A DNA stretch of 28,940 nucleotides, taken from positions 1 through 28,940 of IMG/VR virus record IMGVR_UViG_3300023049_000352. The stretch is one strand, 5' to 3'. Each line of letters begins with the position of its first letter. Positions within the stretch are counted from its first letter, which is position 1. Below are positions 24,604 to 28,869 of the stretch, piece by piece. Under the pieces are notes generated by a model. The model searched no databases and had not been told where the DNA came from. It was given only the letters and a program-made list of their open reading frames with translations. The translations under genes and the position numbers were made by a program. Source of the stretch: a virus.

Positions 24604-25461
24604 TTATTGTTGTTTTGATTTCTTGATCTTCATAGCGTGGATCATACGCTTAACCCGTCTCAGGTCGTTCTCGGAGTCTGTAATGATCTTCTTGATGTCG
24701 TTGCGGTCTTCGATACCGTTGGCCACACATACCTGAGTGATGTCGGTAGTGCCAACGCCCTTAAGTTCAATACACTTGCGACCTATACGGCTGTAGATTT
24801 CCTTATAGCCTTTCTTGTTGAGGCGAAGGCCTTTTTTAAGGCGTTTCTCCAGGTGATCTGTTGCTGCTAAGACAATCCCGCAGTGGTCCTCCAGTTGGTT
24901 GAAAATGGTAATGAAGAAATACAGTACCTGGTCGCTCAGCTTGTCGGCTTCGTCCATGATGATGAGTGGACTGTCTTGCTTCTTAAGTTGCCTGGTCACT
25001 TCCATCATCATTTCGGCAACGGTGAGACCAGAGTAATCTCTTCCCATTGCTTGCAGGAGTTCTGCGAGAAAGTATTTCCTGTTCCAGTACTCGTTGCATT
25101 GCAGCAGGTGGGCTCTTTTGTTGTTTTGTGTATAGTGACGGATCGCCAGAGACTTACCGCTTCCTGCTTCGCCTACAATAGCAAATACATTGTGAAACTG
25201 CTGAGCGTCTGAAAGGAGGCTGGACATGATCTTGTAGTCTCGAGTCTCCACGACTTGCCATTGGTCTTTTGTAAATCCAGTTTGTGAAGCGATGTTTCTC
25301 CACATGTCGTCCGAGATCTTCTCCCAGTTGTCATTGATCACTTGAGAGATCAATGCGCCAGATACACCCTTAAGTGTTCTTGTTGCCTGGTTCTGCGAGT
25401 CGTAGCGAGCGCAGTAGTCTTGCAGTTGATTTTTAATTTTTGTTTTGTCTTGAATAGTCAT
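24604..25461 (-). CDS. MuB-like transposition ATPase
   Basis: This is a 285-residue protein from the ATG at 25461 (MTIQDKTKIKNQLQDYCARY). A longer reading from 25509 would run through the intergenic hairpin and is rejected. The N-terminal 60 residues form an HTH-like domain (NQATRTLKGVSGALISQVIN). The AAA+ core has Walker A GEAGSGKS (residues 97-104), Walker B LIIMDEADKL, and a sensor-type IVLAATDHLEKRL. MuB binds target DNA, stimulates MuA and confers target immunity. It follows MuA directly. The C-terminal part (IKKIITDSENDLRRVKRMIH) fits the AAA+ lid. Confidence 0.85.
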   Translation of the reverse strand: MTIQDKTKIKNQLQDYCARYDSQNQATRTLKGVSGALISQVINDNWEKISDDMWRNIASQTGFTKDQWQVVETRDYKIMSSLLSDAQQFHNVFAIVGEAGSGKSLAIRHYTQNNKRAHLLQCNEYWNRKYFLAELLQAMGRDYSGLTVAEMMMEVTRQLKKQDSPLIIMDEADKLSDQVLYFFITIFNQLEDHCGIVLAATDHLEKRLKKGLRLNKKGYKEIYSRIGRKCIELKGVGTTDITQVCVANGIEDRNDIKKIITDSENDLRRVKRMIHAMKIKKSKQQ

Positions 25462-25490
25462 AACTTTGGGTTTTGGATTATTAATAGATT

Positions 25491-25520
25491 GCCCGTGCTT
25501 AAGCTCCACGGGCTTTTTTT
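25491..25520 (+). terminator. Hairpin with plus-strand T-run between MuA and MuB
   Basis: GCCCGTG (25491-25497) pairs with CACGGGC (25507-25513) and seven T follow on the plus strand. The flanking genes run on the minus strand, so as a terminator it would stop antisense transcription from the right end of MuB. On the minus strand no T-run follows, so the hairpin could instead separate MuA and MuB message levels. Confidence 0.6.
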
Positions 25521-27528
25521 ACATCATATCGTAAGGATCGTACTCATCGCTGTTGCTAACTTCTTTCTGAAATTGTGCGAGTTCCAATTCTTTCTTTTTA
25601 ACTGGCTTAGGCTTATTTAGTTTGCTTTTTTGGCGTCTGGAAGACTCTACTCCCTTAATGTTTGGAGATCTTAAGCCTTGTTGGTGTGCTGCACCTCCGT
25701 GAGCTTCGAGAATGTCTTCAGTAGCGTTTCTCATGTCTACACGCAGATCTTTGTTGCGTTGGATGATGTCTCTTAAGAAATCCTCTTCAAACTCTGTGAT
25801 CTCCTGGCGAGCTCTGGAGACTTCGACCTTAGTTTCGGCAGCCGTCACAAATCGAAGTCCGAGCGGTGTGTCTTCATAGAGGTAGATCATTGTCATATCC
25901 TCAGGATCAAACTTGATGTGGAACTTCTTATCGATAGACTTTCTGTGGAAGTTCATATCGGCTCTGCGATCTTCATCGTAAACCAGATATTCGTACTTAG
26001 CGCCTTTCTCTGTGAATGAAAGTCCAGAAGCATTGTAAGTGACAGGCTTATCACGTAAAATCCAGAAGAGATCCACCATGTCAAACATGCTTAGCTCTGG
26101 AGCTTCAGCATTTGTACTTTCCAAATACATGGATATGCGTGGCTTTCCTGTCTTGTGGTGAGTCGCTTCGTTCCATTCCTTACGTCGCTTAGCGTATGTG
26201 GCTTTGATTTCGTCCAGACTTGGCAGATCGCGTTGATTTGCCAGGATAAACTCCATATTTGCCTTAGATTCTTGTTTTTTGGTGGTGATGTTCTGGCCTG
26301 TAAAGAACCAATCACGCTTTAAAAACTGCTGTTGGAATCTTCCAAAAATGCTTTCAATGGTCTTGGATTTACCATTATAAGGCTGTGTTTTTATACTTAG
26401 CCTGGCTAACTTGGTTAAAAACTCCCCAGATTGTAGTTTTTTATGTCCTCCTTGGCCATCAAACCCAATTTGATAAGGTCTATGTCCAGAAGTTTTCGCA
26501 GCCATCTTATAAGCGAAGTATTGAGCTTCGTAGTCTTCAGTTTTACTTATATGGTAACCTAGTAATACCTCCGAGAAAGTGTCAATCACTTCATACACCT
26601 GGCAAGTCTGCATTTTTCCATTTTCGTCCTGGTAGTAGTAATTGAGCTTAGTACCGTCACTATACCATAGGCTATCACGCTGTGAAGGCATTTTGGTCTT
26701 AAGGTGCATGGTATATTTCTCTTTGGCGGTGACCTCTCCAAATCTGTGTCCATACCAAAGGGGTTTGATATCCTCCTGGTGTAGATAGTTGTAGATGGTT
26801 TGCTCAGATTTCAGTTTCTTCCAGCCTTCGTCTTTAGCCAGTTTATTGTATTCGGCAAAAAGCTGCATAGTATTGGCAATCTTGTTGACTTGATCTGCCC
26901 AACGAGATACGAGCCACATTTTGGCATTGTCGTTGATTTTCTCGGAGTTCTTGTTACAGAAATTACCATGCACCAGGCTGTCAAAACCTTCGGTCTTGAA
27001 TTGGTTGTATTTCTGCTTAAGTCTGCGGTGGTTAGATGGTAAAGAATGAGGCCATTGATTGAAGGTTAGTTCACTTACTACTTTAGCCATCTTTTGCCAA
27101 ACTTGCGTTTTTGCAACTCCAAGAGCTCTACGCTTAGCAAGCTTATTATTTATCATTACATCAATAGTGGTAAGAATGGAAGCATTTGCGGTGTATTCGT
27201 TGATGTTTTTCTCTGGAAGGGCTTTATCGTCATTGGTGACGTAGTTCTGGAAGTATTTTTGCGCCTCGAGGTTGGTGTTTAGATAATCGGTAAAAACGAT
27301 GTGCTTGGTTTTCTTGTAAGGATCACCAGCAATTTGAACAATTTTAGATTTTATCCTATCCGGAATAGATTCAAACTCAATAAGTGCTTTAACTGATCTG
27401 CATCCTCTTCGTATGACGTTGATGTTTCCAGCAGAAGCGTGGTAATGATAGTTATTTCGATTAAATATCTTTCTATCAATTAGCCAGCTGGACTCAACAC
27501 AAAGGGTATCGTTGTAAAATTCAAACAT
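25519..27528 (-). CDS. MuA-like DDE transposase
   Basis: This 669-residue protein is the phage integrase and replicative transposase. The N-terminal domain (about residues 1-75) has SSWLIDRKIFNRNNYHYHAS and INVIRRGCRSVKALIEFESI, the DNA-binding domain that is also encoded separately just upstream. Two further DNA-binding segments follow to about residue 280. The catalytic triad is Asp291 (WYSDGT), Asp357 (IGFDGQGG) and Glu392 (KTIESIFGRF); Asp357 and Glu392 are 35 positions apart. The Mu triad is D269, D336 and E392. The C-terminal end is basic (RRQKSKLNKPKPVKKKELE), as needed for MuB contact. The ATG is one base after the stop of the domain copy. Confidence 0.9.
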   Translation of the reverse strand: MFEFYNDTLCVESSWLIDRKIFNRNNYHYHASAGNINVIRRGCRSVKALIEFESIPDRIKSKIVQIAGDPYKKTKHIVFTDYLNTNLEAQKYFQNYVTNDDKALPEKNINEYTANASILTTIDVMINNKLAKRRALGVAKTQVWQKMAKVVSELTFNQWPHSLPSNHRRLKQKYNQFKTEGFDSLVHGNFCNKNSEKINDNAKMWLVSRWADQVNKIANTMQLFAEYNKLAKDEGWKKLKSEQTIYNYLHQEDIKPLWYGHRFGEVTAKEKYTMHLKTKMPSQRDSLWYSDGTKLNYYYQDENGKMQTCQVYEVIDTFSEVLLGYHISKTEDYEAQYFAYKMAAKTSGHRPYQIGFDGQGGHKKLQSGEFLTKLARLSIKTQPYNGKSKTIESIFGRFQQQFLKRDWFFTGQNITTKKQESKANMEFILANQRDLPSLDEIKATYAKRRKEWNEATHHKTGKPRISMYLESTNAEAPELSMFDMVDLFWILRDKPVTYNASGLSFTEKGAKYEYLVYDEDRRADMNFHRKSIDKKFHIKFDPEDMTMIYLYEDTPLGLRFVTAAETKVEVSRARQEITEFEEDFLRDIIQRNKDLRVDMRNATEDILEAHGGAAHQQGLRSPNIKGVESSRRQKSKLNKPKPVKKKELELAQFQKEVSNSDEYDPYDMM
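27449..27501. repeat. Exact 53-base repeat, copy within MuA
   Basis: This stretch is identical to 27690-27742, at a distance of 241 bases. It lies in the core of the duplicated N-terminal domain coding region. Outside it the copies differ mainly at silent positions. Confidence 0.85.
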
Positions 27529-27529
27529 C

Positions 27530-27769
27530 TTAAGTATTTTTAATATTAGTCATCTTGTAAGGATCACCAGTCATCTCTACAATCTTATATTTTAGCCTAT
27601 CTGGAATAGACTCAAATTCGATAAGAGCCTTCACATTTCTGCAACCTCTTCTTATCACATTGATATTACCAGCTGAAGCGTGGTAGTGGTAGTTATTTCG
27701 ATTAAATATCTTTCTATCAATTAGCCAGCTGGACTCAACACACAATGTATTTTCGTGATATTCAAACAT
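27530..27769 (-). CDS. Stand-alone copy of the MuA N-terminal DNA-binding domain
   Basis: This 79-residue protein is a tandem duplicate of the transposase N-terminus. Of the first 75 residues about 63 match MuA, and residues 8-44 are identical. Over residues 8-58 I count about 18 codons with silent differences against one amino-acid change (S45N), which shows selection on the protein in both copies. The homology ends at GDPYKMTN; the last residues (IKNT) come from the leader of MuA. It lies between the Ner-like gene and MuA, one base apart from each. In Mu, the MuA N-terminal domain binds the operator/enhancer and is related to the repressor. This protein could therefore regulate early transcription or transposition by competing for those sites. 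The function is inference. Confidence 0.75.
   Translation of the reverse strand: MFEYHENTLCVESSWLIDRKIFNRNNYHYHASAGNINVIRRGCRNVKALIEFESIPDRLKYKIVEMTGDPYKMTNIKNT
27690..27742. repeat. Exact 53-base repeat, copy within the domain gene
   Basis: Partner of 27449-27501. The duplicated unit of 241 bases also includes the short leader with ATTTAGAATG here and ACTTAAGATG before MuA. Confidence 0.85.
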
Positions 27770-27770
27770 T

Positions 27771-27962
27771 CTAAATATTTATGATGTTATTGATACGAGC
27801 ACTGATTCTTTTGTACTCTTCTGAGATCTTTTGAGCGGTTTCAGAGGTTCTTTCACCATTTATACTATAAATGACCATTCTTTCTGAAACTTGATATTTA
27901 CCAGCAAGCCTAGAAACAACTTGCTTGATATATGTATTCTTATTTTTAGTAGATTTGTTCAC
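27771..27962 (-). CDS. Ner-like small HTH protein
   Basis: This is a 63-residue protein if it starts at the GTG at 27962. A TTG at 27992 would give 73 residues, but that codon overlaps the -7 box of the early promoter and so would not be in the transcript. The HTH is VVSRLAGKYQVSERMVIYSI with NGERTSETAQ after it. Mu has Ner, a small regulator, as the first gene of the early operon before A. The position and size fit, although sequence homology is not claimed. Its stop is one base before the ATG of the MuA-domain copy. Confidence 0.55.
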   Translation of the reverse strand: MNKSTKNKNTYIKQVVSRLAGKYQVSERMVIYSINGERTSETAQKISEEYKRISARINNIINI

Positions 27963-27989
27963 TTTGTATGTTTTGTTCTTGTCTCTGAA

Positions 27990-28022
27990 CAAATGTAAAC
28001 CATATAATCTAAATTAGGCAAA
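27990..28022 (-). promoter_or_regulatory. Early promoter, Bacteroidota type
   Basis: On the minus strand TTTG (28022-28019), 21 bases, then TACATTTG (27997-27990), a perfect match to the -33/-7 consensus TTTG and TAnnTTTG. The expected transcript starts near 27985 and reads into the Ner-like gene, the MuA-domain copy, MuA and MuB. Confidence 0.7.
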
Positions 28023-28054
28023 CATAATTAGAGTATATATCAAATTTTAACATT

Positions 28055-28405
28055 ATGATAGTAGACAGAGTTTTTAAGTACCTGAAACACAAAGGGATTA
28101 ATAAATCCGAATTTTACAGGCAGACTGGTATGTCTAATGGTTATTTAGATAAAGTCAAAGATGTTGGTGTGTCTAAAGTCAATTTGATATTAGATACTTA
28201 TCCAGATCTTTCTGAGTTATGGTTAATCAAGGGGGAAGGTTCTATGATTAAGAGTAAGGATCAGCCGCCAGACAATGGTTTAAACATATATCTAATAGAT
28301 GTACAGAAGAAACTCATTAACAAATTAGAGGAGGACAACGAACGTTTAAAAAAGCAAATCAAACGCGGAAACGGTCATCAATACGTTGCTGAAGCTGACA
28401 ACTAA
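28055..28405 (+). CDS. HTH phage repressor without protease domain
   Basis: This 116-residue protein has an N-terminal HTH: VFKYLKHKGINKSEFYRQTG, then MSNGYLDKVKD, and LILDTYPDLSELWLIKGEGS. This is the usual pattern of Bacteroidota phage repressors with WL-x-x-GEG-x-M at the domain end. The C-terminal part is a coiled-coil (VQKKLINKLEEDNERLKKQI), not an S24 peptidase. It lies divergently from the early operon, 62 bases from the early promoter region, as the Mu c gene does. It probably keeps the early promoter closed. Release of repression would not depend on LexA-type self-cleavage. I saw no clear plus-strand promoter. Confidence 0.75.
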   Translation: MIVDRVFKYLKHKGINKSEFYRQTGMSNGYLDKVKDVGVSKVNLILDTYPDLSELWLIKGEGSMIKSKDQPPDNGLNIYLIDVQKKLINKLEEDNERLKKQIKRGNGHQYVAEADN

Positions 28406-28586
28406 CTAGCAACCATCACACACTATCAACCTTCATTTTTTGTAATCCTTTATGAAACAAGGCTTTACTCCTTTACTGTTAATAAATTTAAGGAATTAAC
28501 CCCCTTTCTATCTTGTATTTTATAACCATTTACTCTAAATAATTGGAATTAAATACCTTCGCATTGTGTGAGTATTTTTGTTAAAA

Positions 28587-28622: not shown

Positions 28623-28792
28623 CCATTTTTGAGTGATTCGCGCAGCATCCAAATCAAATTGTACAATTCTGCCTTATTTAGTTTAAATACGACCAATAGA
28701 ACTAACTCAAATAAAGGCTTTAGAGCCTGTTTACATTGATATTCTGGTATATAACTGTATATTTGATTGCTCAGTAGAACCTGAGGGAAAGC

Positions 28793-28838: not shown

Positions 28839-28869
28839 AAGTAAAAAATGTACAATTTGAAAAACGCAT

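Follow-up and report, generated by a model that had tools for sequence, protein, structure and literature searches.

Why should a transposable phage carry, directly in front of its transposase gene, a second and free-standing copy of the transposase's own N-terminal domain? This question is raised by the IMG/VR record IMGVR_UViG_3300023049_000352, a 28,940-nucleotide stretch of DNA (hereafter the window) from a Mu-like phage related to phages of Bacteroidota. The original prediction held that the copy is a separate domain protein, long conserved, which could bind the same sites as MuA. Our results indicate that the small gene is real, selected in its clade and rare in the sample, and that it has probably evolved more than once.

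The small gene and its place in the early operon

The early operon lies on the minus strand, in the order ner-like gene, 79-codon gene, muA and gene for a MuB-like ATPase, and the repressor candidate runs in the opposite direction (Table 1). A single base separates the ner-like stop from the start of the small gene, and another single base its stop from the muA start, so that the small gene is probably co-translated with both neighbours. The ner-like reading frame is open further up, from a TTG at 27992; in a model of this long form, helices are predicted at residues 23-32, 37-45 and 51-72, and the first 20 residues have a mean pLDDT of about 51.

Table 1. Positions of the small gene, its neighbours and related features in the window
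Feature	Coordinates	Strand	Remarks
MuB-type ATPase	24604..25509	-	PHROG 296 DNA transposition protein, E 4e-59
MuA-type transposase, 669 aa	25519..27528	-	PHROG 310 transposase, E 3e-70; ATG at 27528
MuA N-terminal domain, residues 1-75, paralog of the small gene	27304..27528	-	
53-base block inside muA, counterpart of that in the small gene	27449..27501	-	
Small gene: separate copy of the winged-HTH domain found at the transposase N-terminus, 79 aa	27530..27769	-	TAA stop included
53-base block inside the small gene	27690..27742	-	identical to muA codons 10-27
Ner-like HTH protein	27771..27962	-	GTG at 27962 favoured by alignment with relatives
Palindrome TTTGTTC-N8-GAACAAA upstream of the ner-like gene	27972..27993	.	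present in immunity types 1-3
Divergent HTH repressor candidate	28055..28405	+	HTH_26 (E 0.08) and PHROG 8 transcriptional regulator (E 0.004), both weak

The muA product has the family profile and the DDE residues of MuA/TnsB transposases. Its family profile retrieved TnsB (E 3.6e-7) and Mu transposase (E 0.005) from the PDB, and D291, D357 and E392, which from the motif we take to be the DDE triad, are invariant among 12 sequences; its Pfam matches fell below the Pfam cut-offs. The repressor candidate, as had been predicted, does not share the MuA N-terminal domain: its HTH matches are weak, neither Pfam nor PHROG revealed the domain in it, and a domain profile run over the whole record (E up to 0.1) found exactly two such domains, the small protein and the front of MuA.

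Residues 1-75 of the small protein are identical to the MuA N-terminus at 63 positions and replaced at 12, a likeness beyond chance (E 1e-43). The start of the small gene lies 241 bases from that of muA, and an exact 53-base block, corresponding to codons 10-26 plus two bases, is common to both genes. Over codons 8-58, 18 codons carry silent differences and one a replacement (codon 45, N/S). A recount thus returned the same values as those first given for the length of 79 residues, the match, the block, the offset and the silent and replacement codons. In all, the copies differ at 39 of 225 bases (9, 4 and 26 at codon positions 1, 2 and 3). Because of these differences, and because the same arrangement is found in three related loci (L005, L006 and L008), an assembly artefact was rejected and the duplicate is taken as real.

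The small protein was modelled with AlphaFold2 from 96 related domains (mean pLDDT 91, pTM 0.78). The predicted fold is a winged helix-turn-helix (E3-5, E8-12, H13-18, H24-33, E38-40, E49-51, H57-67, H70-73), with the order of HTH helices, the two-stranded wing and the C-terminal helix of the Mu class. When 893 chains were re-aligned structurally, the top two, both at Z 5.2, were the DNA-binding domains of the Mu repressor (1qpm, over 64 residues) and of MuA (1tns, over 67 residues); as a Z of 5.2 is middling, this ranking is the stronger part of the fold evidence. Foldseek alone gave no match below 0.001, with 1tns at rank 38 and 1qpm absent among the 50 matches listed. With hhalign, E values of 2.1e-4 (probability 46%, 39 columns) against a seven-row Mu-family MuA/c alignment, 0.0024 (60 columns) against Mu c alone and 0.012 (40 columns) against Mu A alone were obtained. 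Searches of Pfam, NCBIfam, PHROG and PDB sequences with the small protein returned no convincing family, the matches to PHROG 35161 (E 0.07) and to a ryanodine receptor (E 0.27) being taken as chance, and among the matches listed for the 96 domain members (25 of 32 rows) there was no Mu-type Pfam family. From the model and these alignments the small protein is read as a remote member of the Mu winged-HTH class, in line with the kinship to the MuA and c DNA-binding domain that had been proposed. The recognition helix is identical in the two copies of the window, and across the clade the small protein and MuA hardly differ in the predicted recognition helix (residues 24-33) and wing (38-51).

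The palindrome upstream of the ner-like gene is a candidate operator or enhancer site. It overlaps a TAnnTTTG motif before that gene, which we take to be the Bacteroidota -7 consensus, and of 200 related loci, 12 have a TTTGTTC-N7-10-GAAC pattern ahead of muA. A tie between palindrome and domain copy was rejected, as the palindrome occurs in loci with and without the extra domain. Near the right edge of the window, TTGTACAATT at 28659 and TGTACAATTT at 28849 may be MuA end-binding sites, and TTGTACA or TGTACAA is found at seven further places of the window.

Immunity types, mosaicism and selection

A scan of viral contigs with the small protein yielded seven close loci, and a scan with a type-2 copy returned this set of contigs again. 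The repressor and ner sequences sort these relatives into three immunity types. In type 2 the small gene is intact in L006 and L008, and L007, cut by the contig edge, keeps its last 66 codons; in type 3 it is intact in L005. Type 1 includes the window, which has the small gene, and L003 and L004, which are without it, one of the two being 97% identical to the window. Absence from close relatives, which the original prediction had named as evidence against itself, is therefore observed in two of the seven loci; the gene is present in four, and in the seventh, L009, the contig edge falls inside the domain. L009 (IMGVR_UViG_3300012030_000102) begins at codon 10 of muA or of the domain, exactly where the 53-base block begins; a start at the shared repeat suggests an assembly break there or the coexistence of single and double forms.

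In L003 and L004 the single muA opens with the first residues of the window's small gene (MFEYHENT) and continues with MuA sequence. An assembly short-cut through the 53-base repeat was considered and rejected, since two contigs that differ elsewhere share this join, and the single-copy form is taken as real. The small gene may have been lost from these relatives through recombination, or else acquired by the window.

Codons 1-26 of the window's small gene are identical at the DNA level to muA of L003, codons 27-58 show no difference from the free-standing gene of type 2, and the front of the window's muA (71 codons) is itself identical to that of type 2. As the differences are unevenly spread and the halves match different sources, the comparison indicates that the window copy is a recombinant, in which a MuA front has been joined to a type-2 copy. 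Identity profiles reveal strong mosaicism on both sides of the region. When positions 27300-28500 are compared with L003, L004, L006 and L008, the repressor-ner segment differs in blocks, its flanks are similar, and the change-over lies near the first muA codons.

This mosaic changes how the 18 silent codons and one replacement are to be read. With a front half derived from MuA, the count mixes recent exchange with old divergence, and the ratio within the window, put forward in the original prediction as a sign of long selection, does not on its own count as evidence of it. Since the exchange, codons 59-71 have acquired two replacements and no silent change relative to type 2, numbers too small to judge.

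Evidence for selection comes instead from the orthologs of types 2 (L006) and 3 (L005), which differ by about 35 silent changes over 44 silent sites, so that silent sites are saturated, and by 8 replacements over 170 sites. Within codons 1-26 there are 14 silent and 5 replacement differences, and here the two small genes have residues in common that differ from those of MuA (SIWVINQNILKRKN vs SSWLIDRKIFNRNN); conversion from muA can thus not account for the low replacement in this part. About 80% of changes would be replacements under neutrality, and binomial tests on the raw counts, uncorrected for saturation or transition bias, give 2e-17 for the whole gene and 2e-7 for codons 1-26. On this single pair of ortholog types, the small gene appears to be under purifying selection in its clade, the MuA-unlike half included. 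The claim of a separate domain protein kept by protein-level selection therefore stands through types 2 and 3. On the same pair a decaying duplicate was rejected for the clade; for the window copy decay stays a rival.

Occurrence in other phages and in bacterial genomes

Short proteins matching only the MuA front, next to muA in Mu-like phages, had been suggested as a check, and such proteins were found. MuA scans provided the sample: the best 80 of 351, of 162 and of 290 viral loci, and the best 80 of 182 genome loci. The 348 loci with MuA comprised 231 distinct cores, 208 of them with the domain start and more than 300 upstream bases, and 207 once L189, a re-fetch of L061, had been removed; L004, which has no copy, is represented by another locus of the same core sequence, and L007 falls below the upstream limit. 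A clear extra domain lies directly upstream of muA in five of these 207 distinct loci (L005, L006, L008, L041 and L060), the other 202 having no clear copy beside muA.

L041 and L060 thus join the loci of the window clade. The L041 copy, seen in one contig, is 36% identical to its own MuA front and is located 19 bases after a ner-like gene and 13 bases before muA. The copy of L060 and L061 is 54% identical to their own MuA domain and likewise placed before muA. In L060 it follows a Ner-like protein without a break, as an in-frame fusion of 157 codons that is open up to the contig edge and whose stop and the muA start overlap in a TAATG. The Ner part shares 57% identity with the free Ner of L079, and in some relatives of L060 ner stands immediately before muA. 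This fusion is carried by two contigs that are identical over it, with a contig edge close upstream. The extra domain and the MuA front have diverged from each other in their DNA-contact region in both L041 and L060, and the idea that copy and MuA bind the same sites consequently fits the window clade best.

The tree of the 96 domains, built on few columns and with a long L041 branch, requires no fewer than three state changes for the small copies, all forced by supported branches. Three origins of the free-standing domain are the simplest reading of this tree, although the same pattern could result if the resident muA had overwritten an older copy.

Fainter signals were also met. Three Bacteroidales Mu-like loci (L169:1522-1707, L290:1460-1639 and L303:1545-1763) have frames of 60-73 residues with a weak domain match (E 2e-4 to 4e-3), 0.8-1.3 kb upstream of muA. 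The match of L259, weak (E 0.001) and covering part of the domain only, was dropped. In annotated phages, tblastn with the small protein gave one place per record in 23 records and no second domain place.

Among Bacteroidota genomes, a domain match was obtained in 8 of 397 (E 1e-4) and, at E 0.01, in 43 of 393, 9 of 395 and 26 of 299, some genomes recurring between searches. In most genomes 14 or 19 from among the first-look candidates were scored, and no two domains lay within 1 kb among the matches listed. Twelve bacterial regions were fetched, short frames in G721, G436:C20, G1237:C46 (contig ends), G641, G790:C73 and G509, among others, being left out. As free-standing domains, L381 and L384-L387 were rejected as contig-end cuts, and L379, L380, L388 and L389 as broken muA; in L380 and L388 the bacterial muA is interrupted, its front of 151 or 243 codons forming a separate frame. 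L382 has a weak 72-residue frame, the domain profile gave no match in L383, and the bacterial contig L378 contains a lone severed domain fragment without muA.

Possible role of the small protein and known systems

The explanation that we moderately favour is that the small protein is a trans-acting DNA-binding regulator, a free-standing copy of the MuA winged HTH that competes with MuA. It would be made second in the early operon, between the Ner-like regulator and MuA. With a recognition helix and wing close to those of MuA, it should bind the DNA bound by the MuA front domain, and would most likely compete with MuA at those sites and at the early promoter; on the simplest view, a co-expressed copy of this part of a transposase acts where the transposase itself binds. 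The outcome could be less early transcription and transposition, or a later transpososome assembly; the negative sign of this effect is a guess on our part. The small protein would thereby fill, for a phage whose repressor lacks the domain, the role of InsA in IS1 and of c in Mu. As the repressor candidate is without the domain, cross-talk of the kind seen between repressor and transposase in Mu would most plausibly be provided by the small protein, and the Ner fusion of L060 ties the domain to early-operon regulation. The absence from L003 and L004 indicates that the gene is dispensable, at least in evolution.

An unlikely alternative is that the small gene is a by-product of recombination: the swap of an immunity module (repressor and ner) with a breakpoint in the first muA codons would leave a severed muA front, translated but roleless and later lost by recombination through the repeat. 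The mosaic of L003 muA and type-2 small gene in the window, the variable presence of the gene inside one phage group and the mosaic identity profiles are all in agreement with such a history. The junction of L003 and L004 is the product expected from recombination in the 53-base block, a severed domain fragment without muA is known from L378, and any duplicate of the muA front made in tandem would come to lie between ner and muA anyway. However, it is difficult to reconcile with purifying selection between types 2 and 3, also at residues not shared with MuA, with an L041 copy that is intact despite its distance from its own MuA domain, and with the changes on the domain tree. Intact frames are moreover improbable under drift: in simulations without selection the frame stayed open in 2-5% of the runs for 0.5-1 substitutions per site, and in 9-13% for 0.25.

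We consider it improbable that the domain is a positive cofactor, which would sit on an enhancer-like site, or bridge it to MuA-bound ends, and so aid transpososome assembly. Its fold is that of the MuA front domain, its sites would probably be the same too, and an operon shared with muA would make it present at the onset of transposition; yet the 202 sampled loci without a clear copy beside muA manage without it, and the small protein lacks the remaining MuA domains. Least credible is a stretch of DNA whose protein is unimportant, either a cassette giving homology for the exchange of MuA fronts, with the hybrid muA front of L003 and L004 as one product, or a coupled leader ORF setting MuA translation, as the one-base spacing in the window and the TAATG overlap in L060 might suggest, since saturated silent sites with kept amino acids between types 2 and 3 point to selection on protein rather than on DNA.

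The regulator reading can be extended, tentatively and with rather less confidence, to a wider scenario. Bacteroidota Mu-like phages with a repressor unrelated to MuA may repeatedly have split off the transposase front as a dedicated early regulator, in one case joined to Ner, and have rebuilt a c-like cross-talk in this way; each immunity type would have a version of its own, and immunity modules would pass from phage to phage by recombination inside the domain.

In Mu, the repressor c shares its DNA-binding domain with MuA and is held to compete with it. The closest solved folds to the small protein are those of Mu c and of MuA domain I-alpha (1qpm and 1tns), and the likeness to Mu is that the same phage makes a non-catalytic relative of its transposase DNA-binding domain. 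Mu c, however, is a 196-residue protein transcribed away from ner and A, whereas the small gene is co-directional, lies within the early operon between ner and muA, ends after the domain and is close to its own MuA front. A described case of a free-standing MuA front domain was not found among the titles and abstract beginnings listed from the open-licence PMC literature. The Bacteroides hankyphage, a Mu-like phage of Bacteroidota, has a CI-like repressor, and the portion of its description available to us makes no mention of a free-standing MuA front domain (PMC12135933).

A worked precedent for such a mechanism is offered by IS1. There, one gene region gives both InsA and InsAB' through a -1 frameshift, InsA being the DNA-binding part made from the transposase gene itself, whereas the domain of the window is a separate, duplicated ORF with its own stop. 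InsA also belongs to a protein family different from that of the small protein. According to the available part of its description, InsA, which has its DNA-binding domain in common with the transposase, is both a repressor of the promoter and a competitor of the transposase for the ends (PMC12428005). Transposable phages need to restrain transposition, and here the front domain itself has become a gene, which appears selected in at least one clade, the arrangement having probably arisen on three separate occasions. Through a protein of 79 residues, the role of the MuA front domain outside Mu becomes directly testable, and a competing regulator would show that transposable phages can reach an InsA-like arrangement by gene duplication.
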